Positions 8,605 to 26,680 of a DNA stretch of 64,000 nt are shown piece by piece (the stretch's first letter is position 1; each line of letters starts with the position of its first letter). The DNA is from Siphonobacter aquaeclarae (GTDB lineage: Bacteria > Bacteroidota > Bacteroidia > Cytophagales > Spirosomataceae): contig NZ_FNGS01000005.1 in NCBI RefSeq assembly GCF_900103285.1, forward strand, positions 430,579 to 494,578, given 5' to 3'. The translations under genes and the position numbers were made by a program. Under the pieces are notes generated by a model. That model saw only the letters and a list, made by a program, of their open reading frames with translations, was not told the origin of the DNA and searched no databases.

Positions 8605-8867
8605 ATATAACTTTTCTGTTGCTGTTGATCGCTGAAAACAAGAGGAATGGCGACTAATTGCCTAAAAACCAATACAATACCTGCCCCTTAACTGCTGAAT
8701 TTCTTCCCCGAAAATGTGAAGAAATGGTATCGGCAGACGGATGCCATACCTGCCGCCGCTCATCACAAGTTGCGTTGCGCCTGTTTCTTTTGCCGTTTTT
8801 GCAGGTCAACTTTGGGCCAAACGTCTGTCGCCTTATCCCCGTTGGCGGCCGACCTGTCTCTGAACTT

Positions 8868-10578: not shown

Positions 10579-10744
10579 CGGCTGAACAGGTAGAAAAGGT
10601 TGATAGAACGACACTGCCGTCTGCTATTCCCGTTTACCGGAAAACAGCGTGCCACTAACGATCTCAGGCCCTGGAAATTACGCGGGATTTACCGGGAAAT
10701 ACGCTAGTTTGGTAGCAAGTAATGTTCACTTTTCCGGAAAACCG

Positions 10745-11929
10745 ATGCGATCACTTCTCCTCCTCCTGTTCGCTGCCTTTTGCCTGTTGCTGAGCTCGGC
10801 CGGTACCGCTCAGCCCATTCGGCGGATCGACGGCTCTGCTATCGACGCCGCGACACTGGATCAACGGGTACGGGATCTGATGGAAAAAGCAAGGGTTACC
10901 GGACTCTGTCTCACTGTTTACAACAACAATCAACCCGTTTTTGCCAAAACGTATGGCTATGCCATCGCCGCTACGAAGCAACCGATGACCGCCTCGACGG
11001 CCCTCTACGCGTTGTCGCTCAGTAAGGCGGTTTTTGCTCATCTGGTGATGCAATTGGTTGACCGAAAGGTAATTGACCTCGATAAACCCCTGGTACATTA
11101 CCTGCCACGCTCCCTGATGACCTATACATTTCCGGGGAAACTATCCTCTTTTAAAGACCTCGAAGGCGACGGGCGCTACAAAAAAATCACTGCGCGCATG
11201 TGTCTCGACCATACCACGGGCTTCCCCAATTTCCGCTGGTTTGAACCGGACAGGAAACTACGCATCAAATTTGAACCCGGCAGCCGGGTAAGTTACTCAG
11301 GTGAAGGACTTTATCTATTGCAGGTAATCCTTCAGGAAATCACCGGAAGAAGCCTGGAATCCCTCGCGCGGGAATACATTTTCGAGCCCTGCGGCATGAA
11401 GGCATCCAGCTATGTGTGGCAGCCGCAGTATGAGCAGGCATATGCGGTCGGCCATGACCGCAAGAACGACAGTACCTTCTTTCCCCGCCGCACGATTGCG
11501 AACGCGGCCGGCTCGCTGACAACGACCATGGACGAATTCAACCGCTTTTATACGCTGCTGATCAATGGCAGGCGGTTGTCGAAAAAGTCCTTTCACGACA
11601 TGACGCACAGCCAGATCCGGATCCGGTCTGTCAAACAATTCGGCCCCCTTTCCTGGAAGGATTCCACCCTCAACGACAACATTCAGCTCGGATATGGCCT
11701 CGGGTACGTCGTCCTGCAATCGCCGCATGGCAGAGCCTATTTCAAGGAAGGAAACGACCAGGGCTGGGGCCACTACACGATTGCCTTCCCGGATAAAAAG
11801 ATCGCCGTCGTCATCCTCACCAATTCTGATAATGGCGAGGGAATCTTCAAAGACCTGCTCAAAGAAACGATCGGCGATGTGTATACGCCGTGGTACTGGG
11901 AAAATTACATTCCGTGGTACGAGCGGTGA
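10745..11929 (+). CDS. Serine hydrolase, beta-lactamase-related class C fold
   Basis: A 394-residue exported protein. The ATG at 10745 yields a signal peptide (MRSLLLLLFAAFCLLLSSAGTAQ); a longer in-frame start at 10649 would bury it. The class C beta-lactamase/DD-peptidase signature is present: Ser91-Leu-Ser-Lys94 (the SxxK nucleophile motif) and Tyr184-Ser-Gly. A late GNDQGWGHY stands where the third motif of penicillin-binding-like esterases lies. Family members hydrolyse esters, D-amino acid peptides or beta-lactams; nothing here singles out beta-lactamase activity. Monocistronic. Confidence 0.9.
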   Translation: MRSLLLLLFAAFCLLLSSAGTAQPIRRIDGSAIDAATLDQRVRDLMEKARVTGLCLTVYNNNQPVFAKTYGYAIAATKQPMTASTALYALSLSKAVFAHLVMQLVDRKVIDLDKPLVHYLPRSLMTYTFPGKLSSFKDLEGDGRYKKITARMCLDHTTGFPNFRWFEPDRKLRIKFEPGSRVSYSGEGLYLLQVILQEITGRSLESLAREYIFEPCGMKASSYVWQPQYEQAYAVGHDRKNDSTFFPRRTIANAAGSLTTTMDEFNRFYTLLINGRRLSKKSFHDMTHSQIRIRSVKQFGPLSWKDSTLNDNIQLGYGLGYVVLQSPHGRAYFKEGNDQGWGHYTIAFPDKKIAVVILTNSDNGEGIFKDLLKETIGDVYTPWYWENYIPWYER

Positions 11930-11963: not shown

Positions 11964-12395
11964 CTACTTCGGAATCAATCGGTATTCATTGAGCGAATTA
12001 CCGGTTTTGCGGCTCTCCGCGGTGCGCTCAAGATGCAGCTCCGATTCTGTCGGTTCGTCCCGGATGTCGTATTCGATGATGGAGACCGTGCCCGTAGGTT
12101 GAGGAACCAAATCACTCAAAATCAGCCGTTTATTATCTATCGACAACGTCCAGGTGCCGGTAATGGCCTTTCCGTCTATATCCGTCAGTACTGCCCGGGG
12201 CGGGTTGCTCAGGTCGAGCGAAAAACGGACATATCCGGGTTTGATATTGGCCGTTCCTCCTTCGGCATACACCAGCGTCGTACTTTCCCGTACTTCCCTG
12301 GCTTTCCAGACTTTTGCCAGCAGCCGGGCTACTGGTTCCTGTGTTTGAGGACGGCAGCTGGTCAGCAGCAACAGAAGCAGCAGTCGCTTTTTCAT
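11964..12395 (-). CDS. Small lipoprotein, last gene of the surface operon
   Basis: A 143-residue protein with a lipoprotein signal (MKKRLLLLLLLTSCRP, lipobox LTSC). The mature part is beta-rich, with a strand pattern GTWTLSIDNKRLILSD reminiscent of lipocalin-like stress or surface proteins, but similarity is too weak for a family call. Its ATG overlaps the stop of the preceding Fn3 gene by four bases, indicating translational coupling. It is the 3' gene of the seven-gene cluster. Confidence 0.75.
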   Translation of the reverse strand: MKKRLLLLLLLTSCRPQTQEPVARLLAKVWKAREVRESTTLVYAEGGTANIKPGYVRFSLDLSNPPRAVLTDIDGKAITGTWTLSIDNKRLILSDLVPQPTGTVSIIEYDIRDEPTESELHLERTAESRKTGNSLNEYRLIPK

Positions 12396-14332
12396 TTGCT
12401 TTTTGTTTTTACGGGGAGACTGAATCGTTTTTCTCCTTCCGCAGATTCGGCCACGACACGGATTTCATAGTCTGTATTCTCCTGAAGATCAGACAGTACC
12501 GCCTGGCTCTCCTGCAGCAACGGCGTAACAGGTTCAAACGCGCCGGTTCCCGAACGGACTACGACCCGGTATCCCCGGAAGCCCTCTGGCTGGGGTGCAG
12601 CCTGCCAGCGTACCTGCAGGGCCTGCCCGTCAAACTTCAGGGATACGTCGGTCGGCGGAGCCAGGTCCCGTTGCTCAGGCAGGTACTCCCGCATCACGGA
12701 AGGCACGGAGCGGTTTCCGGCGCTGTCAATGGCTACTACGCGGTAGGCCGCGCGCTGACCCGGTACCGGCTCGCTGAAGCGATGGGTACGGATGGCAGCT
12801 GCCAGGCATACGTCGTCGCGGTACACGTCGAAAGCAGCGACGTCGGTCGACGACGTCCAGGAAAATGCCAGCTTCCCGCCCTGTACTTCCGGAATACCGA
12901 GAACGGGAGGTGGCGGCGGCACGGCATCGGGCATGCTGGCAGAAAGTACGGCGGGAGCGCTTTCATTCCGCTGCTTGTCCAGCGCTGTTACCCGGTAAAA
13001 AAAACGGTTTCGATGCGTTTTCGGCAGGGTATCGAGGAAAGTCGTGGCCTTTTGCGGCAGCCGGAACAACTGGGCGTAGTTGTCCGGATCGTCTTTCAGC
13101 GCCCGGTAGACGAGGTATCCCTCGAGGTCTTTCTCTGTATTGGGTTTCCAGGAAAGGACGATTTTTCCGGTGTCGGTTCTCGCCGTCAGGCCCGCAGGCA
13201 TAGCCGGCGGCGTGAGATCGGCCAGGGTGACGGACACGGGCATGGTCGACTGCCTGTTTCCGGCTACATCTTCGGCTTCAAGGTAGTAGTAATATCCTGC
13301 GCCTTCGGTTGGCTGTCGGTCTACGTAGACCGTATCTTTTTGCGCCAGCGTGCTGATTTTCATATAGGTATCGTGGAGAGAAGCTTTGCGGTAAAGGGAA
13401 TAGCCTTTGCAATCGGCTGAGCGGGACGGTCGCCAGGAAAGACGGACGTCCCGGTTATTACGCACAGCGATGAGGTTGGCCGGCGCTGCCGGCGGCGTGA
13501 TATCCTTCAACGTCAGCGTCGCCGGCTGGCTGTAATACCCCGGGTTACCAAAGGCATCCATCGCCGCCACCCGGTAGGTATAGGTTTCACCTTCCCGTTT
13601 GAGGGTATCGGAATCGGCGTAGAAGGTATCGGGCGTTTTGCCGTTTATGAATTCGGGAACGGCGATGGCCGTTTTAGTGATTTGCCTTTCCGGTTCACTC
13701 CCCTTTTTTCGGTAGACGTGGTAGTTGATAAAGTGGCGGTTGTACGTCCATTTCATCGAAATAGTCCCGGCTGAAAGCTGCTCCAGCACCAGCGCCGCCG
13801 GCGAAGGAGGCGCTTCGAATGGTTTGACGGTAATCGGTTCCGAAAAGCCCATCGTCATTTCCTTTCCCTCCCAGATCATCGCAATTCCGTACTGATACGT
13901 TTCGCCGGGTTTGACTAGTACGTCCTTGTAGTACATGCCGGCCAGTTGCGCGAAGCGGGTGTCGGAATATGCCTGAAGAGCCACAGTTTCGGTATAAGCC
14001 CTCAGGGCTTTTTTCTCTTTCGGAACGTTCATCGCCGCTCGGCTGTACTCCAGTTCGGACCGCGAATACTTGCCGGTATACCGCTGCTCGGATACCGGAA
14101 GCGGCGGTTCTGCTTCCAACGGAACCCGGGTCAGTTTGCGAAACTGCTTTTCTCCGGGTCCCTTTCGGTATACGTGGTACCTGGACTTGAAACCGATCGT
14201 CAGCAACCATTTTACCTGAATTTCATTTTTCCCCGGTACGATGCCGGTGTACACAACCGCTCCTTTGCGCTCCTGGGCGCCAGCTCCGGAAACAGTCGCC
14301 AGAAAGACGAGAAAAAGACCTATCCTTTTCAT
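12392..14332 (-). CDS. Exported multi-domain fibronectin type III protein
   Basis: A 646-residue secreted protein with signal peptide MKRIGLFLVFLATVSGAGAQ. After an N-terminal domain of about 90 residues, which itself contains a strand HVYRKGPGEKQF, it has at least five fibronectin III modules. These are recognised by recurring NYHVYRKKG / GYSLYRKASL / GYLVYRALKD strands and TPPAAP linkers. It ends KTKSK without a T9SS sorting tail, so it may stay periplasmic or be held by partners. The start lies 16 bases after the giant gene and the end overlaps the lipoprotein gene. Likely a scaffold or adhesion part. Confidence 0.85.
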   Translation of the reverse strand: MKRIGLFLVFLATVSGAGAQERKGAVVYTGIVPGKNEIQVKWLLTIGFKSRYHVYRKGPGEKQFRKLTRVPLEAEPPLPVSEQRYTGKYSRSELEYSRAAMNVPKEKKALRAYTETVALQAYSDTRFAQLAGMYYKDVLVKPGETYQYGIAMIWEGKEMTMGFSEPITVKPFEAPPSPAALVLEQLSAGTISMKWTYNRHFINYHVYRKKGSEPERQITKTAIAVPEFINGKTPDTFYADSDTLKREGETYTYRVAAMDAFGNPGYYSQPATLTLKDITPPAAPANLIAVRNNRDVRLSWRPSRSADCKGYSLYRKASLHDTYMKISTLAQKDTVYVDRQPTEGAGYYYYLEAEDVAGNRQSTMPVSVTLADLTPPAMPAGLTARTDTGKIVLSWKPNTEKDLEGYLVYRALKDDPDNYAQLFRLPQKATTFLDTLPKTHRNRFFYRVTALDKQRNESAPAVLSASMPDAVPPPPPVLGIPEVQGGKLAFSWTSSTDVAAFDVYRDDVCLAAAIRTHRFSEPVPGQRAAYRVVAIDSAGNRSVPSVMREYLPEQRDLAPPTDVSLKFDGQALQVRWQAAPQPEGFRGYRVVVRSGTGAFEPVTPLLQESQAVLSDLQENTDYEIRVVAESAEGEKRFSLPVKTKSK

Positions 14333-14348
14333 GGTATTTTATTGATTA

Positions 14349-17300
14349 TCAGCAAAAACCAAGGCAGATTATGTTGACGATTGTTTCTCCGATGTCTTCC
14401 AGCAATTCTCCGGCCTCGTTTACCAGGCGGAGCGCTCCGTCGACAATCTTGTTCAGAATACCGTCGCAGGCTCCGGGGTCGTTCGGAGACGGGAAGCACA
14501 TGTCTTTCTGTTCCCCAAACACTTCGAAAACAGGTGCTCCGTTTTTGATGCCGATGACAAAACTGGGTCCTCCTATTCCCGGAAAACATATTTTCTGGCG
14601 CAGGGCGATGCAGAGCGGATCGAAGGCCGTCATCTGAACATAGACGCCGACATCGGCCAGGTCGCGCTGAAAAGGACTGTATCCCGCGGTCGCCGTCAGT
14701 CTCGCGCCTATCTCCGCTTTTGTCGACATGTCCTTGATATTCAGGTCAAAGTCGGCATTCGCCGTCACCGTCACCAGCAGATACGGGTTGTCTATTCCGG
14801 TCATCGACCGGCTATCGAGCGATAACAGGGTGGCTTGTGCGTGAACGCGGATGCCCGTCCCGACCGGAACAAATGCCAGCGGCCCGGTCATGGCTTCATT
14901 CGTATGAAATACCGTCGCAGAAGCGCTGATGGAAGTCATGTTTCCAAGCGGACCGGCGCCGCAAAAGAGATTTGCCTGAATGGGCTCCGAGGGCGTTCCG
15001 GCCGAACAGACGAAGTTGGCTTCTTTGTCCAGGTAGAAATAGGCTTTCCCATGACCGCACAAAACGGTCAGATTCGCTTCCTGTATGTCGACCGTACCGG
15101 ACATAGTCAAATCAAGAAAGTCGAAATTGACCCGCATGCGCCCTTTTATTCTGGCGTCTCCTCCGTCGGCCTGCGTCGACAGGATGCCAGCGTCTCCCTG
15201 AATGGTCATGGTCTCCGGCACAAAACCCTTGAAAACGGTCTCTGCAGCAACGCGCCCCTTGAGCAGGTATCCGCCTTCCATCGTCCGGATGGGCATACTG
15301 ACATACATCCCGAAGCTGACACCGTGATGGGGAATGTAATCTTCCTTTCCGATGTCGTCATACTGATCGCCGGCATGTTTCATGTGGTGGTAAAACCGCC
15401 CTTTGAATCCGTACGCCTCGACGCCGGCAAAAAGCGGAAATGTAGTCAGATCGCCTTCCGTACCCACTTCCAGAAACCAGTATTTAACCCCGTTTTTATT
15501 GCCGGCAACGACGGTGGACGTCGCCATCTGCCGGAAAGGCTCGCGTATTTCCGCATTGAGTTTAACCCGGAAGCCATTTCCGTAATCCGGATCGTCGAGG
15601 TAGGACGTAAAGGTGCCTTCGAAAGCCAGGCTGCCGATGTCTGCGCCGGCGCGGATGGTATTGGTTTCCTGCACCATCTCCGGCGCCGGAAGTGCCCGCC
15701 ACATGACATACTCGGCAGTCTCCAGTTTTTCGAAAGCCGATACGGGCTCCAGGCCCCCTCCTTTCGGGATTTTGGATTCTTTGAGGTTAGCCGGGACCGT
15801 CGGCTTGCTATTGGGCACAACGGGAGGAACGGACGGAGAAGCCTGTTTGAAAGGAGCCGTAAATTCAAAATCGTCTGCCGGTTTGGCAAAAGCGAAAGAC
15901 AACCTGCTTTCATCTCCGAGGGAAACGATCTTCTCGCCCAGCACGATCATCCCGCCTACGTCGAAATGGCAACTGTCATCCGATCCTTTTGCGGAGGAAT
16001 AAAAATCGGCCCATTTCAGGTGAAAATCCATCCCGTTGTAGGCGGCCGACAGTTGCTCGTCGCTGTAGTAGGCGGAATGAGCAGACACCAGAAGTCCTGT
16101 CCGCTGAATCCGTCCGTCTGCCGTGATCCCGACTTTCTTAACCGGAATTCCCCAGGCCAAAAGGCCCCGGTTGACCTTGTATTTGTTTCCCGCGAAAAAG
16201 CGCAACTCGCAGGTCAGCGCGTCGTCGTGTTCAAACTTCCCGGATTTCAGTTCCACCGTCAGTTGGTCGCCCTCCGGCGTATCCACCAGCGTCCGGGTTC
16301 CTTTCTGGATGCGCAGTACTTCGCCGTCGGCCAGCCCGTCGTCTGTCACAGCGATGTAGAGATCGCCGATCGCACCAATGACCGGGATGTAAAGGGCTCC
16401 CTGAATAGAGCCGCCCTTGAGCCGGCTCTGCCGGATCGTCAGGGTCGAGGAGGTTATTTTCGCCTTGAAGCCCCGGAAGGTTGTTTTGATGGCAGTCTTG
16501 TTCTTATCTCCCCGTATTGTCGCAAAGCCGTTCCCGGTATTGACCAGGCCAAAATGCGGGATCGTGATGTATTCCGATTCCTCTGCAGAGAGCTGTTTCG
16601 ATGGAGTATTCTCCTGAATTACTCCGCGCCGGATGGTTGAAGCCTTCACCACCGGTTTCATGCCACCGGATGCAGGCAGTGTTCCGCTTCCCGGCATCAG
16701 GTTTCGCGGAAGGGTTTTGGAGGACGCGGCCCGTACCAGTATAGCCGCCTCCGGCAGGGCCACGCCGGTCACCCATTCGGGATAGGTCAGGTCTTCGGCC
16801 TGCCACAAATCCGCCAGCCGGATATTGAGTTTGCTGAAGCGGAGAAAGCCGCTGGCATTGTCGGTCAGTGGTACGACGAGCGGATCATCGACCGACGCCG
16901 TAAACGCCACACCGCTCTGCTCCCGGAAAGGTATCTGCATTGCCGGGCAGCCGCTCCGTCCGCAGGGAATGGTCAGGTCGCCGGTGAGGACTACTTTCAG
17001 AACGCCTTTTGAGATGCTGAAGTACGACGTTTCCTCCAGCGTCAGCGCGAATCCCGGCAAATCCGATAGTTTTTCATAAGTCAGCCGCTTGCCGAACGCT
17101 ACTTTCAGCTCGCCGGATTCGTTGGTTTTACCCTTGCTGAGCGGCCCCCAGACAGCAGGTACTTCTACGCGGACGGACGAAAACAGGGACGTCGGCGAGG
17201 CGATTGAAAACCGCGGGTTAACTGCTCCTTTCGGTACTTTAACCTGTTCGGAGATAAGGATCGGCGAGTTCCAGCGTACGCCGCTCCGGATTTCGGCTAC

Positions 17301-18596
17301 TTCGCTCCCGCCCTTTTTGTCATACGCATTTCGCTCTGTGTTGAATTCGACGGGTACCTGGGCATCCAGGCGGACGGCGTCGCATGTCATTGCTGCGCTG
17401 CCTCCGGTATGCGGATCGGTCTTCAGTTTCGCATCTGCCTGACTATAAGCAGATGCGTCGATAGCCTCCTCCAGGTGCCCCTGAACGACTTCGAATCCGC
17501 TGAAACCCTGTGTCGCAGGGTATTGTCCTTCCGCAAAACGGGTCGGCCGGATGGTCAATCCCGAAAAACGAACACGGACAGTCATCCGAAAGGGTTCCAA
17601 TAACGTCAGCGTTCCCTCTCCTGTATATTGATCCAGGCGGGTATCCGTGAGTTTGGCTACCTGAATGGCCTTTCCGCAAAAGGTAAACAGGTCCAGCCGG
17701 GCCTCTGCCGGTGGTTTCGGAAGCTCTTTTTTCTTTTCGGCGATGACTTCCGCCCCGTAGCGGAATGAGCAGACGGGACTTTTGCCGTCGTTCAGGAAAA
17801 CAAGCTTGCCCGTTGGATCGGCGGCCCGCACCCGGTAGGCATACCGTTTGCCGGCCTGAAGCGGCGGATCACCTGGTTTGTAGAAGTATCCGGCTGTTTT
17901 GAGGTGGGTTACTTCCAGTCCGTTGTTCGGAAGGTTGACGGCGTCGATGTATACGTTCGGGTCGACGTCGAGTGGCAGTTCCACCACCCGCAGCGTGTAC
18001 TCCACCTGCGCAGAAGATACTCCCACCGGCGGCGCCCACGTAAAGACAACGGACTGCGGCGTGGTTACCGGCACCTGCCCGTCGCAAACCGGCAGTATCA
18101 GCACAGGGGGCTCGACCGAACGAACGATAAACGGCGCGCTGCATCCCTGCGGAAACTCAGCGGACAGCAGCTGACTTGTCCGGTTATCAAAGGCTTTCAG
18201 GCATAATTGATACATGCCTTCGGGCAACGGCCGGCCCTGGTAGAGCTGGTTTTTGTCCATGCCCTCGACGCTGATCTGATTCAGGTCAAAGAGTCCCTCA
18301 AGGTCAGGCTGCGACAATACCCGGCTTTCCATCGGGGCCAGGTGCAGCGGCACGACCGGCCGGTAGTTAGCCAGCGTCCGGATCGTTACCCCGTTATCGC
18401 CCGTGATACTTCCCTCCAGCCGCAGGTCTATGGCTGTGGCAGTCGTATTCCGCACCAGAATCCGCACTTTGCCGGCCTGGCTTGCATAGTCCTGCAAATA
18501 AGCAGAATATGGCGGCAGTACATTGACAGATACGGAAACCTGCTGCGCACGGGCAACCGTCGCCCCAAAAAGAAAAAAGAAGAACAGCTTTTTCAT
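14349..18596 (-). CDS. Giant exported protein (1415 residues), possible TANFOR-like N terminus
   Basis: From ATG 18596: signal peptide MKKLFFFFLFGATVARAQ, then a domain of about 300 residues (QVSVSVNVLPPYSAYLQDY; NTTATAIDLRLEGSITGDNG; LPEGMYQLCLKAFD). I believe this resembles the so-called TANFOR domain at the head of large Bacteroidota proteins; this identification is from memory and unsure. The remaining 1100 residues are strand-rich, with repeated long beta patterns (KSGKFEHDDALTCELRFFAG; GRMRVNFDFLDLTMSGTVDI), as in beta-helical or layered surface proteins. It ends NIICLGFC, with a C-terminal cysteine and no T9SS tail. Starts 4 bases after the barrel gene. Confidence 0.8.
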   Translation of the reverse strand: MKKLFFFFLFGATVARAQQVSVSVNVLPPYSAYLQDYASQAGKVRILVRNTTATAIDLRLEGSITGDNGVTIRTLANYRPVVPLHLAPMESRVLSQPDLEGLFDLNQISVEGMDKNQLYQGRPLPEGMYQLCLKAFDNRTSQLLSAEFPQGCSAPFIVRSVEPPVLILPVCDGQVPVTTPQSVVFTWAPPVGVSSAQVEYTLRVVELPLDVDPNVYIDAVNLPNNGLEVTHLKTAGYFYKPGDPPLQAGKRYAYRVRAADPTGKLVFLNDGKSPVCSFRYGAEVIAEKKKELPKPPAEARLDLFTFCGKAIQVAKLTDTRLDQYTGEGTLTLLEPFRMTVRVRFSGLTIRPTRFAEGQYPATQGFSGFEVVQGHLEEAIDASAYSQADAKLKTDPHTGGSAAMTCDAVRLDAQVPVEFNTERNAYDKKGGSEVAEIRSGVRWNSPILISEQVKVPKGAVNPRFSIASPTSLFSSVRVEVPAVWGPLSKGKTNESGELKVAFGKRLTYEKLSDLPGFALTLEETSYFSISKGVLKVVLTGDLTIPCGRSGCPAMQIPFREQSGVAFTASVDDPLVVPLTDNASGFLRFSKLNIRLADLWQAEDLTYPEWVTGVALPEAAILVRAASSKTLPRNLMPGSGTLPASGGMKPVVKASTIRRGVIQENTPSKQLSAEESEYITIPHFGLVNTGNGFATIRGDKNKTAIKTTFRGFKAKITSSTLTIRQSRLKGGSIQGALYIPVIGAIGDLYIAVTDDGLADGEVLRIQKGTRTLVDTPEGDQLTVELKSGKFEHDDALTCELRFFAGNKYKVNRGLLAWGIPVKKVGITADGRIQRTGLLVSAHSAYYSDEQLSAAYNGMDFHLKWADFYSSAKGSDDSCHFDVGGMIVLGEKIVSLGDESRLSFAFAKPADDFEFTAPFKQASPSVPPVVPNSKPTVPANLKESKIPKGGGLEPVSAFEKLETAEYVMWRALPAPEMVQETNTIRAGADIGSLAFEGTFTSYLDDPDYGNGFRVKLNAEIREPFRQMATSTVVAGNKNGVKYWFLEVGTEGDLTTFPLFAGVEAYGFKGRFYHHMKHAGDQYDDIGKEDYIPHHGVSFGMYVSMPIRTMEGGYLLKGRVAAETVFKGFVPETMTIQGDAGILSTQADGGDARIKGRMRVNFDFLDLTMSGTVDIQEANLTVLCGHGKAYFYLDKEANFVCSAGTPSEPIQANLFCGAGPLGNMTSISASATVFHTNEAMTGPLAFVPVGTGIRVHAQATLLSLDSRSMTGIDNPYLLVTVTANADFDLNIKDMSTKAEIGARLTATAGYSPFQRDLADVGVYVQMTAFDPLCIALRQKICFPGIGGPSFVIGIKNGAPVFEVFGEQKDMCFPSPNDPGACDGILNKIVDGALRLVNEAGELLEDIGETIVNIICLGFC

Positions 18597-18600
18597 GTCC

Positions 18601-20247
18601 TTAGAATTGAAGTGCATAGCCGAGAGAGGCCCGAAGCTCATCGAACGCCTGCCCGGCGATGCCCGTTTCCGTTTTGAGGTAGTTGCCCAGCAGAGTGGCC
18701 GTCTGCTTAGGTGTGACTTTGTACCCAAGCGACAGGTTCCCGGTCCGGATACTTCCCTGCCTGCCGTCCTGCTCGTTGACGAGGTAGCTCAGGTTCAGGG
18801 AGGTTGTCATTTTTTTCCGGAGAAAGGCCCTGTTTCCGCCGATAGTCGGCCCGTAAAATCGAAGTAATTGACCATCAGGAAGTTGTGTATGCGTATAGCT
18901 TACTACAGCGTTTATTCCCCACTGGCCGGGCGTTTGCGTCAGAAAATAGCCGATACTTCCGTTGGTATTGCGGTTTTCGGTAAAACGGGCGGTACGGGTA
19001 TTGAGGTCCGTCAGTTGCTGGTAGGTCCCGGAGAGCGTCAGTTGGTGGTTAACAGATTCATTTTGAATAAGATAGCGCAGGTTGGCTGACGCAGAGAGGT
19101 TGTTCTGAGCCAGTTTCAGCGTGTCGATCACCGGTCGTAACCCGGCCTGCTGGGTAATGCCGTAGTTGGCGAACTGAATGTCCGCACCGAATCGCGGCGA
19201 CGGATTCAGCGCCAGAACCAGGGAGCCGATCCGCCTGCCGGTCCGGGCGTTTTTATTGGCGGCAAGGTTATCCCGCTGAATACCATAGCTCCCGACGACG
19301 AGGATTTTACCGCCGGCGAGCGTCAACCCCGGAGAAACCGTATAGCTCTCGATATCGCTCTGAAAGTAGTAAGCGCCCATCGACTGAAAATTCGGGTCAA
19401 TACGCTTGTACTGAAGTTTCAGGCTGAAAACCCGGTCTCTGTACGCAAGTCCCGCCTGCAAGGCCTGCGTCAGCTGCGAAGACAGGCGCGGCGTGAAAAA
19501 CGGGCGGAATACCTTCAGCCAGACCGATTCTTCCAGATGTACTTCTTCCGACCGGATGTCCCGGGAATAGGCGCTCACAGCCCCGTCGAGCTCGCCGGAT
19601 AGGCGCTTTCCGATGCGGAAACGGGAGGTTAATCCAAGTATCATGTTCTCGGCCGGTTGCAGCGTCACAGTCTCCGAAGAGACGGGGTTCGCAACAGACG
19701 ACAACGCATCGCCGGCCTTCAGCATGACCAGGTCTACATAGCTGGTCGGCGAGCCATACCCTATTTTCACGCTGTAACCGGTTCGCTGGAAGGCCGGAAT
19801 GACATCCGGGTTGACCAGATCGGTCTGAATCGCCTTGTTGAACCGCCCGTAGACGGCGCCCAGCCGGAGCTTGCCCGGGTTAAGTTCCACTCCGCCACCG
19901 AGAAAGGTATGCCCGGCCAGGGTAAAGGGCGAGAAGGTCACGTTCCGGTACCCGGCGTGCAGCGTAATCCATTTATACTGAGGCGATACGCCAAACTGGT
20001 TGAACGGCTGGCGGAAGCTGACGCCCTGATTGCCGACCGTCAGGGCAAACGGCAGGGATACGCCGCCGGGAAGGGACAAGGTTACCTGGCCGTTGATCCC
20101 GAACGGAGTCGTATTGTTGCGGGGTTCGATGCCGTGCGCCTGGTAGAGTCCGCCGTAGAGTTGCAGGCCGCCCGACAGGCGCACGGATTTCTGCGCCCAG
20201 GCCGGCGCGACAAGTCCCGTCAGTAGCAAAAACAGGTATCGTTTCAT
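18601..20247 (-). CDS. Outer-membrane beta-barrel protein
   Basis: A 548-residue protein with signal peptide MKRYLFLLLTGLVAPAWAQ. The mature part is a series of amphipathic strands separated by short turns (YKWITLHAGYRNVTFSPFTL, KLRLGAVYGRFNK, LQYKRIDPNF). It ends on an aromatic residue (LRASLGYALQF), the BAM recognition pattern. About 20 or more strands could be drawn. I recognise no named family; it is longer than PorP/SprF anchors. Its ATG overlaps the stop of the T9SS Fn3 gene and the giant gene follows 4 bases later, so the barrel may anchor or export these partners. Confidence 0.8.
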   Translation of the reverse strand: MKRYLFLLLTGLVAPAWAQKSVRLSGGLQLYGGLYQAHGIEPRNNTTPFGINGQVTLSLPGGVSLPFALTVGNQGVSFRQPFNQFGVSPQYKWITLHAGYRNVTFSPFTLAGHTFLGGGVELNPGKLRLGAVYGRFNKAIQTDLVNPDVIPAFQRTGYSVKIGYGSPTSYVDLVMLKAGDALSSVANPVSSETVTLQPAENMILGLTSRFRIGKRLSGELDGAVSAYSRDIRSEEVHLEESVWLKVFRPFFTPRLSSQLTQALQAGLAYRDRVFSLKLQYKRIDPNFQSMGAYYFQSDIESYTVSPGLTLAGGKILVVGSYGIQRDNLAANKNARTGRRIGSLVLALNPSPRFGADIQFANYGITQQAGLRPVIDTLKLAQNNLSASANLRYLIQNESVNHQLTLSGTYQQLTDLNTRTARFTENRNTNGSIGYFLTQTPGQWGINAVVSYTHTQLPDGQLLRFYGPTIGGNRAFLRKKMTTSLNLSYLVNEQDGRQGSIRTGNLSLGYKVTPKQTATLLGNYLKTETGIAGQAFDELRASLGYALQF

Positions 20248-22550
20248 GGCTGTTTCAGCATGCGTTTCAGCGTAATACCCTGGTAATTCTGCATTTCGAG
20301 GACGTAGCTGCCTGGTTTCCAGGTATTGGTCGGCAGGTTGAAGGCCGTTCCCCGCCGGAGTGAAACCCGGTCATACCGGTACTGAATCCGTCCGGAAGCA
20401 TCATACACACGGAGATCCACCTCCACAGAAGATTCTTCCGAACGAATCTGCACCAGATCAACGAACGGGTTAGGATATACGCGAATTTCGGTTGGTATAG
20501 GCGGACGGACGGATATGATCGTTTCGGGCGTCTTTGCCGACGCAACATTTGAGTAGCCCGAATAGCCATCAGCATTGAACGCCCGCACACGGAAATAATA
20601 CGTTGTCTGTCCGACAAGTCCCAATACCGTGACTTTCAGGTTTTTCGTTTCGGAGATTTTGGTGAACGGGCCTCCGGCAGCCGTACTTTGTTCGATTTCA
20701 AAACCCGTCTCATTGGTAGAGTTTCGCTGCCAGCCGAGGTCGATCTGATCGGAATTCATGGCGGCGGCGCTAAGCGAGGACGGCGCTGCCGGCGGGTTTT
20801 TCGGAGGCGGTGAAGTCGTCGCACCCGCCACATTCGAATACCCCGATGCCCCCGCCTGGTTCACTGCCCGCACCCGGTAGTAGTATTTGGTGGATGCCGG
20901 AAGGCCGGTATTCGAAAACGTATTTGACTGACTATCTGCGATTTTCGAGAAGGAAATACCGTCTGTCGATCGCTCCGCTTCGAAACCCGTTTCGTTGTTC
21001 GAATTATCTGTCCAGCTGAGGTCAATCCGGGAAGAAGAGGCCGCGGTGGCTGACAAACCGGAAGGCGCGGCGGGTACCTGAACCGGAGGCGCTGACGTCG
21101 TCGCATTCGCTACGTTGGTATATCCGGATGCCCCCGCCTGGTTCACTGCCCTGACACGATAGTAGTATTTTGTCGACGCGGAAAGGCCCATGTTCGAAAA
21201 CGTATTCGGTTGATTATCTGCGATTTTTGAGAAAGATACGCCGTCCGCAGACCGTTCGATCTCAAACCCGGTTTCGTTGTTTGAATTATCCGTCCAACTG
21301 AGGTCAATCCGGGAAGAAGATACCGCGGTGGCTGACAAACCGGAAGGCGCGGCGGGTACCTGAAGCGGAGGCGCCGATGTCGTCGCATTCGCTACGTTGG
21401 TATACCCGGACGGTCCGACATTGCTGACTGCCCGCACCCGGTAGTAGTATTTAGTGGAGGCAGCAAGGCCGGTATTGGAGAATGTATTTGCGGTGATGGT
21501 CGCAATTCCTGCAAAAGAAACGCCGTCGGTTGAGCGTTCTACTTCGAATCCGAGCTCATTTGCCGAATTGTCTGTCCAGCTCAGGTTGATTTGGGAGGAA
21601 GATACGGCAGTGGCTGCCAGATTCGTCGGAGCTGCGGGCGGTTGGGGCAGCGCCAGCGTCGTGGCATCCGCCACGTTGGTGGAAGCGCGTGAAATCTGGG
21701 TGCTCCTTCTGGCCCAAACCCGGTAATAGACCCGCGTACCGGCAGAAAGCCCGGTGTGGGAATAGGCAGTGGTGTTCGGTGGCACAGTGCCCAGGTCGGT
21801 AAAGGTATTTCCGTCCGCAGAGCGCTGGATCAGAAAATCCGTTTCGTTGCTCGAGTTGTCTACCCACTTCAGGTTAATCTGACCGGAAGAAACGGCTGTA
21901 GCGGTCAGGTCTGTCGGGGATCCGGGTACTGCGGCCAGGGTCGTCGCACAGAGCACATTCGACACATCTCCCGGATAGGGTTCGAAATACACCCGATAGC
22001 AATACTCCGTGTAGTCGAGCGGCACCGCCTGGTCTTCGTAGCTTTTGAGATTGGAGTCGTATTTGTAAATCGTTTCCCAGGCGCCATTTTGCCCCTGCCG
22101 CCGCTGGATAATCACGTTTCCGGCGTCTTTTCCTCCTTCTACCTGAAAAGTGATCCCAATCCATCCGGTGCCTTTGGCGTCGATCGACTTCATCACCGGA
22201 ATCAGGGGAAGCACGCCGTCGGCGACGGACGAGTATGCGGAAAACGTCGAGGCCGTCCGGCGGGCCCGTACCCGGTAGTTGACCTGCGTTTGCTGCGTCA
22301 GGTTGTTGTCGGTGTAGGTGACGGTATTCGCTGCCACCTCGCCGATCTTTGTAAACTGGAGGTTGGTAAAGCCGAAAGCACGCTCAATTTCGAATGCCTC
22401 TTCGTTGGAGCTGTTATCTTTCCAGGTCAGGACGACCTGCCGGCTTCCGTTTACTTTCACCGCCAGGTTACCGGGCGCAGGAATCAGCACCTGCGCGGAG
22501 GCCATAGTGATCCACCCTATGCCCGCCAGAAGGGATAGCAGAAATTTCAT
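20244..22550 (-). CDS. T9SS-exported fibronectin III repeat protein
   Basis: A 768-residue cell-surface protein: signal peptide MKFLLSLLAGIGWITMASAQ, about seven fibronectin III modules, then a type A T9SS sorting domain (EIRVYPNPFVDLVQIRS ... GSYVLEMQNYQGITLKRMLK). The middle modules (PAAPSGLSATAVSSSRIDLSW; TKYYYRVRAVNQAGASGY) are almost identical at DNA level with a period of 282 bases, which points to recent tandem duplication. Cleavage of the tail by the T9SS sortase would fix the protein to the surface. It starts 26 bases after the response regulator gene and overlaps the barrel gene by 4 bases. Confidence 0.93.
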   Translation of the reverse strand: MKFLLSLLAGIGWITMASAQVLIPAPGNLAVKVNGSRQVVLTWKDNSSNEEAFEIERAFGFTNLQFTKIGEVAANTVTYTDNNLTQQTQVNYRVRARRTASTFSAYSSVADGVLPLIPVMKSIDAKGTGWIGITFQVEGGKDAGNVIIQRRQGQNGAWETIYKYDSNLKSYEDQAVPLDYTEYCYRVYFEPYPGDVSNVLCATTLAAVPGSPTDLTATAVSSGQINLKWVDNSSNETDFLIQRSADGNTFTDLGTVPPNTTAYSHTGLSAGTRVYYRVWARRSTQISRASTNVADATTLALPQPPAAPTNLAATAVSSSQINLSWTDNSANELGFEVERSTDGVSFAGIATITANTFSNTGLAASTKYYYRVRAVSNVGPSGYTNVANATTSAPPLQVPAAPSGLSATAVSSSRIDLSWTDNSNNETGFEIERSADGVSFSKIADNQPNTFSNMGLSASTKYYYRVRAVNQAGASGYTNVANATTSAPPVQVPAAPSGLSATAASSSRIDLSWTDNSNNETGFEAERSTDGISFSKIADSQSNTFSNTGLPASTKYYYRVRAVNQAGASGYSNVAGATTSPPPKNPPAAPSSLSAAAMNSDQIDLGWQRNSTNETGFEIEQSTAAGGPFTKISETKNLKVTVLGLVGQTTYYFRVRAFNADGYSGYSNVASAKTPETIISVRPPIPTEIRVYPNPFVDLVQIRSEESSVEVDLRVYDASGRIQYRYDRVSLRRGTAFNLPTNTWKPGSYVLEMQNYQGITLKRMLKQP
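20807..21660 (-). repeat. Tandem 282-bp Fn3 modules
   Basis: Three successive modules share the landmark tagtagtattt at 20878, 21160 and 21442, exactly 282 bases (94 codons) apart. The first two also share cccgcctggttcactgccc at 20851 and 21133. Identity between neighbouring units is high at DNA level, so unequal crossing-over could change the copy number. Confidence 0.85.
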
Positions 22551-22576
22551 AACAAGTAGTTGAAGGTTGAGCGGTA

Positions 22577-23206
22577 TCAGACCAGCCCGTTGCGCAGGGC
22601 TTTGGTAATGGCCTCCCCTTTCGAGTTGACGTGCAGTTTCTGGTAAATGTGCAGAATATGCGTATGGACCGTTCCCAGGCTGATGTCGAGGTTGGCAGCG
22701 ATGAGTTTGTAGCTATCGCCTGCTACCAGCCGGGCCAGTACTTCCTGTTCCTTTTCCGTCAGCAGGTACGGATTCTGCCTGGGCTTTGCCTGCTGGAAAG
22801 AGGCCATGACCTTCAGCGCGACTGAAGGCGTCATCGCTGCGCCGCCGGCATGGACCTCCCGGATGGCTTCGACGATTTTCTCGCCGGGTGTTTTTTTGAG
22901 GATGTACCCAACCGCGCCGGCAGCGATGGCGTCGAATATCTTGTCGGTATCTTCGTACGACGTCAGCATCAGAATCCGCACGTCCGGACAGGCTTCGCGG
23001 ATCTTCCGGACCGCTTCGATTCCGGATACGCCAGGCATCTGAATATCCATCAGCACCACATCCGGTGAGTCTGACAATACACGCTCCACAGCCTGCCGGG
23101 CGTCCGGATACGTTCCTGTTACAGACATATCGCCATGCGCGGCCAGCAGCCAGGTAAGCGTTCCCCGGAACGAGTCGTTGTCTTCGAAAATAGCAGTCCG
23201 TATCAT
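22577..23206 (-). CDS. NarL/LuxR-type response regulator
   Basis: A 209-residue two-component regulator from the ATG at 23206 (MIRTAIFEDNDSF). The receiver domain has the acidic pair near residues 8-9, phospho-acceptor Asp54 in VVLMDIQMPG and the Lys in GYILKKT. The C-terminal 65 residues are a LuxR-type helix-turn-helix (LTEKEQEVLARLVAGDSYKL...SLGTVHTHILHIYQKL). It sits between the sensor kinase gene and the surface-protein genes on the same strand and is their obvious candidate regulator. A dyad-containing 19-mer lies 48 bases upstream of its start. Confidence 0.95.
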   Translation of the reverse strand: MIRTAIFEDNDSFRGTLTWLLAAHGDMSVTGTYPDARQAVERVLSDSPDVVLMDIQMPGVSGIEAVRKIREACPDVRILMLTSYEDTDKIFDAIAAGAVGYILKKTPGEKIVEAIREVHAGGAAMTPSVALKVMASFQQAKPRQNPYLLTEKEQEVLARLVAGDSYKLIAANLDISLGTVHTHILHIYQKLHVNSKGEAITKALRNGLV

Positions 23207-23253
23207 ACGCCTGAGGATTTGATACAAAAGTAGCCGGTCCGCCTGTACGGGGC

Positions 23254-23272
23254 TATCATAGAAGTATATGAG
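23254..23272. promoter_or_regulatory. 19-bp inverted repeat copy 1 (putative operator)
   Basis: tatcatagaagtatatgag abuts the kinase stop codon, upstream of the response regulator gene. An exact reverse-complement copy lies at 25380-25398, upstream of the kinase. Each copy contains the internal dyad tcata-N6-tatga, a layout that suits a dimeric LuxR-type regulator. Confidence 0.5.
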
Positions 23273-25171
23273 TCAGACCGTCAGGGTAATCCGGGTACCG
23301 TTTGCGGAATCTATGTCCAGGTTTCCGCCGATTTCCGTGGCCCTGGTGCGCATGTTGCGGAGGCCGTTCCGGGACGTTACCTGCGCTGAATCAAAGCCTT
23401 TACCGTTGTCGGCAATCATCACCGTCAGTCTTTTTTCCCGCAGAAACTGCACCGATACTTCCGTCGCGCCGGAGTACTTGGCGGCGTTGTTCAGGGCTTC
23501 CTTGACAATGAGGTAGACACTGCGCCGGACTTCCATGCCGAGACCGGCGCCGTCCAGATCCGGCGCGGCGTCGATCGTCAGGCGGATGGACCGGGCGTCC
23601 ATGAGCGGACGGGCGTATTCGCGCAGGCGGGCAACCACCCGCGCGAGGGAGTCGTTGCCCGGGTTGACGGTCCAGACGATGTCATCCATCGATTCGAGAA
23701 TCTGCCGGGCATCGGTTTCGATCTTCCGGATCATCGGCGCGGCCATTTCCGTTTTCTTCTCCCGGATCTGCTGCTCCATGAGCGAGCTGAGGAGGGAAAT
23801 ACTGGAAAGCGTTCCGCCGATTTCGTCGTGCAGGTCAGCAGCTATTTTGTTACGCATGCGTTCGCTTTCTTCCAGGCGACGGACTTTCTGCCGGTTCAGC
23901 ATCCATCCTGCGCCGAGACCGCCGGCCAGCAGCAGCAGCAGCCCGCCGCCCAGATAGCCCTGCTTGACGAGGCGCTGCTGGTCGGCTTCTTCCTTTTTCA
24001 ATTTGTTGTCCTGCTGAAGAAGGCGGATCTGCTGTTCTTTTTTCTCCGTTTCATAGCGGGTAGTGAGTTCCTGAAGTTTCACTTCCCGTTCGATGTTCAG
24101 CAGTGAGTCCTTCATTTCCACCCATCTGCTCTGGTGAACAAAGGCCTCTCGGAACCGGCCCATTTCCGAATATAGCTGCGCATAGCCTTGATGAGTAATC
24201 TGAATGTCCTCGGCTTCTTTGAGCCTGACAGACAGCTTCATCTTACGGTCCAGCACATCCTCGGCCTTTCGATAAAGTTTGAGGTCCTGATACGCATTGA
24301 CCAGATTGGTCAGCGTTGTGTTCAGGGCTTCCTGGCTTCCCAACTCGAGGCAGGTTTTTTCAGACAACAGAAAAGCATCCAATGCCTCCCGGTACTTCCC
24401 CATTTTTTCGTACATCCGGCCGATACTGACGAGGCAGTCATTCTCCAGCAGTGGATAGTTGGCTTTTCGCGCGGCTTTCAGGGCAGCCTGGTAGTGGTTG
24501 AGCGCTTCTGGCAGCAGTCCCATATCGTCGTACACATTGCCCATTCCGTTTTCAGTGATGGCTATCTGGGACGGATCTCCGTCTTTGCGGTTATAAGACA
24601 AGCTCTTTTCGTAATATCCCAGCGCTTTCCTGTACTGGCCGGTCGTTTTGAGATAATACCCCACTACGTTGTAAGGCTCTCCGGATAGTTTCGGGAGTTT
24701 GTATTTCTCAAAAACGGCAATCGACTGAAGCGCATACTGCATAGACTTCTCCGACTCCCCGAGGTCTTTGTACATGATGCTGATATTGTTGAGCGTTACC
24801 TGCAATCGCTGCTTCGGCAGGTTGTATTGCAGGCAGATACGGCGGCTTTCCTCGAAAAAATTCAGCGCTTTGCGGTGTTCGTCCTTGTGATACGCCACAG
24901 CTCCCCGCAGGTTAACACTCAAAAATTTTCCCAGCGGGTAATTCAACCGGTTGGCCAGAAGCCCCAGTTGCACGGCAATCGAATCCCCTTGCCGGGTATT
25001 CTCCTCCTGCTCCAGCAACATCCAGACGTAATTCACCATCCCCTGCACGTACAGGGTGTCTCTGGGATGTGTACGGAGGAAGGCTTCGAGGGAATCCCGG
25101 CTGGCGGGAACCTGAGCGCCGAGATCAAGCGTCCGGACAATCATGAAACTCAGCAGTAAAAAACGTTTCAT
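23273..25171 (-). CDS. TPR-containing sensor histidine kinase (HisKA_3)
   Basis: A 632-residue sensor: an N-terminal signal-like hydrophobic stretch (MKRFLLLSFMIVRTLDLGAQ), about 330 residues of tetratricopeptide repeats in the periplasm (for example YRKALGYYEKSLSYNRKDGD, ALNHYQAALKAARKANYPLL) and a coiled coil. One membrane span follows (YLGGGLLLLLAGGLGAGWML), then a HisKA_3 dimerisation helix with phospho-acceptor His in AADLHDEIGGTLSS, then the ATPase with DNGKGFD. This class pairs with NarL-type regulators, and one follows directly. It is the first gene of the cluster; the TPR part probably senses a protein or peptide in the periplasm. Confidence 0.93.
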   Translation of the reverse strand: MKRFLLLSFMIVRTLDLGAQVPASRDSLEAFLRTHPRDTLYVQGMVNYVWMLLEQEENTRQGDSIAVQLGLLANRLNYPLGKFLSVNLRGAVAYHKDEHRKALNFFEESRRICLQYNLPKQRLQVTLNNISIMYKDLGESEKSMQYALQSIAVFEKYKLPKLSGEPYNVVGYYLKTTGQYRKALGYYEKSLSYNRKDGDPSQIAITENGMGNVYDDMGLLPEALNHYQAALKAARKANYPLLENDCLVSIGRMYEKMGKYREALDAFLLSEKTCLELGSQEALNTTLTNLVNAYQDLKLYRKAEDVLDRKMKLSVRLKEAEDIQITHQGYAQLYSEMGRFREAFVHQSRWVEMKDSLLNIEREVKLQELTTRYETEKKEQQIRLLQQDNKLKKEEADQQRLVKQGYLGGGLLLLLAGGLGAGWMLNRQKVRRLEESERMRNKIAADLHDEIGGTLSSISLLSSLMEQQIREKKTEMAAPMIRKIETDARQILESMDDIVWTVNPGNDSLARVVARLREYARPLMDARSIRLTIDAAPDLDGAGLGMEVRRSVYLIVKEALNNAAKYSGATEVSVQFLREKRLTVMIADNGKGFDSAQVTSRNGLRNMRTRATEIGGNLDIDSANGTRITLTV

Positions 25172-26153: not shown

Positions 26154-26561
26154 TTATTCTCCTGAGGCTAACCAGGCCGCGCATTTTATCAGGAATTCGC
26201 CAAGGTAAACACGCCGGTGCGAAAGCGCGAGCGTCAGCGCATGGGTAATCTCCTCCGTCGGCGCGTTCCTGGCGAGAAAACCGCTGTCGCCCAACCTGAT
26301 AAACGGCAGCGCATATACGTTTTCGTCGAGCCGTGTAAAAACCAGTACCGGTATACGGGGCTGCAACGCCCTGAATATGTGGATGATCCCGATAGGATCA
26401 CATCCGGCTACAGCGATATCCAGGAGTATCAGGTCAAAATGCTGCGCCTGAAGGGCATTGGTTGCCTCCTCCAGTGAGAAGACCGCAACGCACTCCGTCC
26501 CGGCAAAAGACGCGCCAGCAACTGCCGCAGGGCAGCTTCCATAATCGGATAGTCGCTTCAT
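26154..26561 (-). pseudogene. Degenerate response-regulator receiver domain
   Basis: From the first usable ATG (26561) the frame gives a receiver core: HFDLILLDIAVAGCDPIG with the phospho-acceptor Asp, IPVLVFTRLDE and LGDSGFLARNAP. The N-terminal part is in the wrong frame. Another minus frame over the same bases reads SDYPIMEAALRQLLARL, the normal first helix of a NarL-type receiver, but is preceded by stops. After the receiver, where a LuxR helix-turn-helix would be expected, the frame ends (CAAWLASGE). So both ends look damaged, although a receiver-only protein cannot be excluded. Confidence 0.5.
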
Positions 26562-26680
26562 CAGTTTGTTCCGGCGGTATTGAAACAGACTGAAAAGCTG
26601 GCGCTGTGCGGCGAAAAAAAGGAGTAGCAAATATGCGACACTCTCGCAACCTGCTGTATTTTTTTTTGCGCGGAGACATG

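Follow-up and report, generated by a model that had tools for sequence, protein, structure and literature searches.

Organization of the locus

Our analysis of a 64,000-nt stretch of Siphonobacter aquaeclarae DNA (the window, which here means this whole stretch) concerned seven minus-strand genes for a sensor kinase, a regulator and five exported proteins, among them a putative outer-membrane barrel and a giant protein of 1415 aa. A preliminary description of the window had presented these genes as a compact operon for exported proteins built around the barrel, and our results support that view. All seven open reading frames (ORFs) are tightly packed, and we confirmed the intergenic gaps given there, which in the order from the kinase to the lipoprotein are 66, 26, −4, 4, 16 and −4 nt; the barrel and trunk genes are thus those 4 nt apart. 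Domain matches agree with a TPR kinase and a NarL-type regulator placed ahead of the five exported proteins. Also in keeping with the earlier account, Pfam and NCBIfam searches recognised a type IX secretion system (T9SS) tail in only one of the five: Por_Secre_tail was found on the first Fn3 protein and not on the giant, the barrel, the second Fn3 protein or the lipoprotein. The genes and their parts are the following.

23273..25171, minus strand: sensor histidine kinase (HK) with Pfam matches to TPR_12 (2.3e-25), HisKA_3 (7.3e-11) and HATPase_c (4.3e-9); TPR repeats, presumed periplasmic, and one membrane span judged by eye
22577..23206, minus strand: NarL/LuxR-type response regulator (RR), matching Response_reg (2.6e-24) and GerE (2.4e-15)
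20244..22550, minus strand: first Fn3 protein with a type A T9SS tail; six fn3 stretches, Por_Secre_tail at 30.8 bits (cut-off 23)
18601..20247, minus strand: predicted outer-membrane barrel, putative partner of the TANFOR trunk, from structure prediction, Foldseek and gene linkage
19876..20034, minus strand: most conserved part of the barrel (mature residues 54-106), a candidate docking site
14349..18596, minus strand: giant, 1415 aa, assigned to the TANFOR class from its relatives and from TIGR02542 (E 3.4e-11, below cut-off)
17745..18539, minus strand: trunk of the giant, residues 20-284, TANFOR plus Fn3-like domain, the constant module in trunk alignment A5
14352..17744, minus strand: body of the giant, residues 285-1415, a long beta-rich stretch and exchangeable module in which no toxin domain was found
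12392..14332, minus strand: second Fn3 protein (Pfam fn3), exchanged along with the body of the giant
11964..12395, minus strand: small lipoprotein, optional, with the lipobox LTSC judged by eye

The length of the giant is counted from an ATG, the mechanical ORF starting earlier at a TTG, and signal peptides were likewise judged by eye. Neither the barrel nor the lipoprotein has a Pfam or NCBIfam match at an E value of 0.1 or below. The giant and the barrel are each single-copy in the window's genome.

The giant as a probable, divergent TANFOR protein

A match to TIGR02542 (TANFOR) covers residues 19-158 of the giant and model positions 3-144 of 145 (E 3.4e-11), but its score of 43.2 bits lies below the curated cut-off of 67; among four other giants, three match below the cut-off and the fourth has no match. 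Judged from its sequence, the giant appears to be a divergent member of TANFOR, a Bacteroidota class published as polymorphic toxins. In the passages covered here, the publication describes 339 TANFOR proteins as Bacteroidetes polymorphic toxins, reports SprB, Fn3, PKD and T9SS-tail domains as enriched around their genes, and offers T9SS export of these proteins as the authors' hypothesis only (PMC7073777). The words "barrel" and "porin" have zero occurrences in its main text. The statement in the preliminary description that no described system with this exact set was known is too broad for the giant and its Fn3 and T9SS-tail neighbors, which appear to fall within a published class; of the barrel partner and of the exchange of body and Fn3 partner described below we found no description in the literature searched, many subscription papers lying outside it.

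In the window's family, taken as Spirosomataceae (genomes of Spirosoma, Larkinella, Runella, Dyadobacter, Fibrella and Fibrisoma being among those included), the giant was matched in 66 of 200 genomes, a table that includes the window's own genome. The matches typically comprise residues 1-285 only, at 25-65% identity, within open frames of up to 2818 aa. No match to the giant was found in five congeners (E ≤ 0.001), and a scan of named genomes with the giant sequence alone found nothing.

Linkage of the barrel and trunk genes

We examined 40 family loci of 20 kb, picked for match strength and spread and not at random; in 38 of them the TANFOR gene is immediately preceded by the barrel gene (exceptions L062 and L067). 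Using an alignment of 29 barrels (A1) as query against named genomes, we obtained 374 relatives and kept the best 80. The barrel was the sole basis for choosing these 80 loci, and in 73 of them a trunk gene comes next on the same strand; some of the 80 belong to the same organisms as loci among the 40 selected by the giant. At L135 the trunk is present and the ORF caller reported no barrel ORF. Six barrel loci (L103, L104, L106, L110, L111 and L112) have no TANFOR gene nearby and possibly represent a second use of this protein; four of them (L106, L110, L111 and L112) lie near an RR-labelled gene. As for gene order, a 960-aa TANFOR protein with RCC1 repeats at its end is encoded upstream rather than downstream of the barrel at L155:5388-8267, and L156-L158 share this arrangement. 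In both Emticicia loci, L100 (5603-6454) and L101 (from 11595), the barrel gene is immediately followed by a TANFOR gene no longer than a trunk (283 and 281 aa), which looks as though the trunk were able to act alone.

At the level of the phylum, we ran the trunk profile A5 (31 rows, built in this analysis) and the barrel alignment A1 against 198 genomes, keeping matches at E ≤ 2e-11 and leaving out the window's genome (n = 197). The trunk occurred in 43 genomes and the barrel in 45, with both in 42, the trunk only in 1 and the barrel only in 3 (Fisher p 4e-38, kinship ignored). The single trunk-only genome (G238) has a weaker barrel match near its trunk gene (L166), and the matches in the three barrel-only genomes (G215, G229 and G246) are partial. 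Trunk and barrel copy numbers are equal in 38 of the 43 trunk genomes, including 12 of the 16 multi-copy ones. These genomes span 29 genera, and some members of genera g45, g69, g80 and g95 have both genes, others neither. Among 68 trunk matches, 45 have a barrel no more than 2.5 kb away on the same strand (upstream in 40), and 56 have one within 10 kb. Collectively, the barrel-trunk linkage is near-obligate.

In three loci, which come from family groups f15, f31 and f33, trunk and barrel are fused in a single ORF: L152:3010-5721 (903 aa), L153:4623-7310 (895 aa) and L154:12636-15479 (947 aa). As natural sequence fusions, they lend indirect support to a physical trunk-barrel complex. Behind the L154 fusion lie two TANFOR giants encoded as separate proteins (1719 and 1571 aa), and at L165:3606-16816 a single barrel is surrounded by an OmpA-family protein, a predicted M43 peptidase and as many as three TANFOR proteins, so that one dock may serve several cargoes.

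Sequence distances were compared among 60 loci that have all parts (59 of the named loci plus that of the window, or as the script selected them). Barrel and trunk distances correlate with r 0.95 (Spearman 0.70, 1770 pairs). Within the 27 Spirosomataceae loci, r is 0.78 for barrel and trunk (351 pairs) and 0.91 for barrel and RR (91 pairs).

Joint exchange of the body and the second Fn3 protein

The loci contain 117 TANFOR proteins, 99 of them distinct, with a post-trunk part of 1 to 2469 residues. The 95 proteins with at least 60 post-trunk residues fall into four main body types (43, 23, 11 and 7 members), one type of 3 and eight singletons. The type with 7 members is that of the window, and its other members are from Larkinella rosea, Spirosoma panaciterrae, S. 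profusum, Runella defluvii and two Flavobacterium species. A second Fn3 gene is present in 60 of the 66 named loci of the four body types, the remaining six being without it or ending before it. In type 1 loci, an extra gene of 195-379 aa precedes the Fn3 gene in 10 of 15 cases, as against 1 of 45 for the other types.

The nearest relative by Fn3 partner shares the body type in 60 of 60 loci, compared with 38 of 60 for the nearest relative by barrel. Barrel and Fn3-partner distances correlate with r 0.48 (Spearman 0.21, 1770 pairs), and within the Spirosomataceae loci r is 0.30 for barrel and Fn3 partner and 0.11 for RR and Fn3 partner. In the same family loci, barrel distances are 0.302 within and 0.323 between body types, and Fn3-partner distances are 0.518 and 0.816; none of 5000 label shuffles, in which pairs are not independent, reached the observed Fn3-distance difference. 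These patterns indicate that the barrel, trunk and regulator share one history, and the body and Fn3 partner another.

The exchange can be followed at the nucleotide level in Runella. Between R. defluvii (L080) and R. limosa (L079), the barrel is 97%, the trunk 98% and the RR 92% identical, whereas the bodies have no similarity and the Fn3 partners are 26% identical over 65% of their length. DNA homology (88%) stops within 2 nt of the profile-defined trunk end and picks up again, at 94.7%, no more than 3 nt from where the T9SS-tail Fn3 gene starts, with everything in between differing. The pairs L076/L074 and L093/L087 likewise lose homology no more than 5 nt from the trunk end. The trunk end had been set from the end of giant homology in the family, and these junctions therefore show a recurring point and not an independent domain border. 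Body and second Fn3 protein are exchanged jointly between related species.

Predicted structures of the barrel and the giant

The AlphaFold2 model of the mature barrel, computed from an 80-row alignment (A3), reached a mean predicted local distance difference test score (pLDDT) of 84.8 and a predicted TM-score (pTM) of 0.72, and has 26 strand elements, one of them just four residues long. Its top Foldseek neighbor in the PDB is Mtr complex chain B (6r2q_B; E 4.3e-10, TM 0.55, root mean square deviation [rmsd] 12 Å), which we take to be MtrB, followed by SlpA-type barrels and the PapC and FimD ushers (ushers: E 1.8e-7, TM 0.37), in alignments of about 10-12% identity and high rmsd. The C-alpha radius calculated for a barrel of 24-26 strands is about 22-26 Å, and the modelled bore would in principle be wide enough to pass an Ig-type domain. 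Mature residues 54-106 have a mean majority-residue frequency of 0.80, compared with 0.45-0.64 in the other nine blocks.

No Pfam family was found for the window barrel (E ≤ 0.1) or for four further barrels scanned, and none of the 29 barrels of A1 has an NCBIfam match at E ≤ 0.001. We rejected a PorP/SprF (PF11751) identity on the Pfam result and on a profile comparison, and a chaperone-usher or MtrB/PioB identity on the lack of a Pfam match in the window barrel and the four others. Profile comparison (hhalign) with the four PorP/SprF proteins of the genome, which form a four-sequence profile, gave a probability of 6.8 over 27 columns of signal peptide only.

For the giant, residues 20-1219 were modelled from a 70-row alignment that has at most 7 rows at the sampled positions past the trunk (mean pLDDT 74.9, pTM 0.47). 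The trunk is confident, most of its blocks being over pLDDT 85, and the model contains long runs of antiparallel strands; weak stretches are model residues 265-281, 607-646 and 895-958. A Foldseek search with this 1200-residue model returned nine matches at E ≤ 0.001, mostly Fn3-bearing receptors plus LptDE and SlpA. The receptor matches presumably arise via the trunk, the output giving no aligned ranges, and from this search we claim no fold for the body. A sequence search of solved structures with the giant and the barrel returned nothing useful.

Accessory genes and neighborhood

Genes of the family loci were labelled HK, RR or Fn3 by their best BLAST hit to the window genes. Gene order is conserved in relatives for the core of barrel, giant and second Fn3 gene, a positive outcome of a check proposed in the preliminary description, but none of the 40 family loci showed all seven genes in the order of the window, and a fixed seven-gene unit could not be upheld. 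In 19 of the 40, HK and RR labels precede the barrel on its own strand. Where RR and barrel genes are neighbors, the gap is 175-275 nt in eight closer loci, suggesting that the regulator pair probably has its own transcript in those relatives, and 70-1403 nt in seven more distant ones. The first-Fn3 label occurs in 20 of the 40 loci, there downstream of the second Fn3 gene and thus at the other end of the operon; a broken locus (L070) also has one fragment upstream. Among relatives' first-Fn3 proteins, two of three pass the T9SS-tail cut-off and the third scores 20.6 bits against 23; the tail was found in none of three second-Fn3 proteins. The lipoprotein is labelled in 7 of the 40 loci (38-58% identity), accompanying body types 0, 1 and 3. 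We consider that the sensor, regulator, T9SS-tail protein and lipoprotein are best read as accessory parts.

A close equivalent of the window HK, like the giant, is absent from the five congeners (E ≤ 1e-60 for the HK), and the sensor and giant may thus come and go together. This speaks in favor of the idea in the preliminary description that the TPR sensor controls the operon and that the state of a surface structure is monitored in the periplasm. The idea is tempered by LuxR-type regulators being common in the window's genome, with 44 GerE matches at E ≤ 0.001, and such control is a possibility. The FimS sensor has TPR as well. A FimS-type identity of the window HK was rejected, its NF053520 score being 60.6 bits against an equivalog cut-off of 600. 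In the part of the source covered, FimS-FimR of Porphyromonas gingivalis resembles the window pair as a sensor kinase plus regulator of a surface structure, but unlike that pair it controls fimbriae (PMC11053733).

Downstream of the operon, two convergent plus-strand genes encode a predicted Zn-dependent protease (DUF2268; 8658-10211) and a beta-lactamase-family serine hydrolase (10649-11929), the latter with no close match in the five congeners (best 26% identity). Upstream, a minus-strand ORF of 158 aa (26154-26630) encodes a receiver domain (4e-9) for which no accompanying output domain was found.

Discussion

The operon layout, the barrel-trunk linkage, the three fusions, the large predicted barrel and the joint exchange of body and Fn3 partner, all obtained by computation, suggest a modular cell-surface system of the TANFOR class, in which the barrel docks the trunk and the body and Fn3 partner form a swappable cassette. 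We regard this reading as probable, with moderate confidence. Its constant module would be the barrel of about 26 strands and the N-terminal trunk of about 265 residues, with its TANFOR and Fn3-like domains. The trunk would bind the barrel in the outer membrane, which would make the barrel a dedicated dock and possibly also a conduit, and the barrel would hold the giant with its long beta-rich body outside the cell. In the variable module, the second Fn3 protein would recognise or cap the body. The first Fn3 protein, exported by the T9SS, would join at the surface, and the TPR sensor would read the state of the envelope and, with the NarL-type regulator, probably tune expression. The assembled structure may act in adhesion or cell contact.

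Several observations weigh against this proposal. Six of the 80 barrel loci have no trunk gene (L103, L104, L106, L110, L111 and L112), and a barrel on the same strand is missing from the 2.5 kb around 23 of the 68 trunk matches, 12 of which lack one even within 10 kb. Only the second half of the trunk profile, including the Fn3-like part, is spanned by 26 of these 68. The genomes behind the co-occurrence test are related and not independent. Within Spirosomataceae, the barrel-RR correlation is at least as high as that of barrel and trunk, and congruent trees alone therefore do not single out the trunk. In a fourth pair of loci (L090/L078), homology ends inside the barrel gene and not at the trunk end. 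Finally, the barrel superposes poorly on its Foldseek neighbors, with an rmsd of 12 Å even for the best.

The other explanations differ in where the giant goes and by which route. It might exit via the T9SS translocon, the barrel only capturing it outside as an anchor or shuttle in the manner of SprF-SprB and PorP-PG1035, and we give this route serious weight, a little below an even chance. SprA is present in 43 of 43 trunk genomes and in 110 of 154 others, an association that is confounded, since 19 of the 20 SprA-free genomes listed are from one family (24 more are unlisted). The operon itself encodes a T9SS-tail protein, and examples of a cargo gene paired with its cognate barrel gene are known for the T9SS, as covered in part of the sources (PMC12618676, PMC9143113); the TANFOR authors likewise proposed T9SS export (PMC7073777, passages covered). 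The giant, however, has no T9SS tail, and the barrel lacks similarity to the PorP/SprF proteins of its own genome beyond the signal peptide. We find it rather unlikely that the barrel is itself the channel for both export and display, making up an unnamed Bacteroidota two-partner route with the trunk as plug and address tag; such a route would carry toxins in some lineages and cassette-exchangeable giants with Fn3 partners in others, and the giant would be independent of the T9SS translocon. That the giant and the Fn3 proteins remain periplasmic and serve the barrel as a channel, for example in uptake, would accommodate the finding that neither the giant nor the second Fn3 protein has a T9SS tail, as well as the OmpA-family protein, a possible cell-wall link, of the related cluster L165. 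We think this improbable, as one operon product bears a tail for surface export, and the replacement of a whole body between sister species that keep barrel, trunk and regulator better fits diversification at the surface.

The class to which the N terminus of the giant appears to belong also raises the possibility that the giant is a polymorphic toxin whose C-terminal toxin domain went unrecognised and whose immunity protein is encoded by one of the downstream genes. We scanned with Pfam the last 420 aa of 59 giants, out of the 99 distinct proteins, and in three of them a toxin-like domain scores above the cut-off: WHH in L063, RES in L068 and a VgrG3-like C-terminal domain in L067. The barrels of these three loci are among the most divergent, at 25-28% identity, that of L067 being a fragment that does not adjoin the trunk gene. 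The window giant has no Pfam match in its last 420 residues, and a toxin reading of it is not supported; the barrel-trunk pair thus appears to serve both toxin-bearing and apparently toxin-free giants. The last 200 or so residues of the giant are not common to two Flavobacterium relatives of the same body type, a point in favor of a toxin, but its C terminus aligns with Larkinella and two Spirosoma relatives across the whole body. The exchanged unit, moreover, is a body of more than 1100 residues with an exported Fn3 protein of about 650 aa and not a short tip with a small cytosolic immunity protein. The second Fn3 protein tracks the body type, yet has no immunity-family match in Pfam or NCBIfam, and an immunity role for the lipoprotein is not supported, given that it accompanies different body types. 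A toxin is thus to be doubted strongly in the window.

Compared with known systems, the window shares with the TANFOR polymorphic toxins an N-terminal region resembling the TANFOR domain, a large exported protein and nearby Fn3 and T9SS-tail genes, and differs in the absence of a detected toxin domain and in a TIGR02542 score below the cut-off; PMC7073777 mentions no barrel and, in the passages covered, no exchange of body and Fn3 partner. The nearest working analogies are SprB-SprF and PG1035-PorP, in which a T9SS type B cargo or other surface protein is encoded beside its own barrel as anchor or shuttle, as it would be in the window (PMC12618676, PMC9143113, both as covered in part). The recognition module of the giant would, unlike theirs, be N-terminal and not a C-terminal domain (CTD), and the window barrel, of about 530 residues, is unrelated by profile comparison to the four PorP-type ORFs of the genome, which have 296-373. 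With Mtr complex chain B, PapC and FimD, its best Foldseek neighbors, the barrel shares the predicted form of a wide outer-membrane barrel, although it has no Pfam match and low identity to them.

The core of the system is three genes, for the barrel, the giant and the second Fn3 protein. It is smaller and far more widespread than was first supposed, and it appears to belong to a published class. The authors who described that class left the exit route of TANFOR proteins open, with the T9SS as a hypothesis (PMC7073777, passages covered), and the barrel, which accompanies the trunk nearly everywhere in the phylum sample, tends to have the same copy number and in some genomes forms one protein with it, offers a concrete candidate for their dock or channel. 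With the body and Fn3 partner being swapped at a sharp junction, the giant falls into two modules, one for the address and the other for the payload, and the pairing of barrel and trunk suggests how the whole TANFOR class may reach, or stay on, the cell surface.

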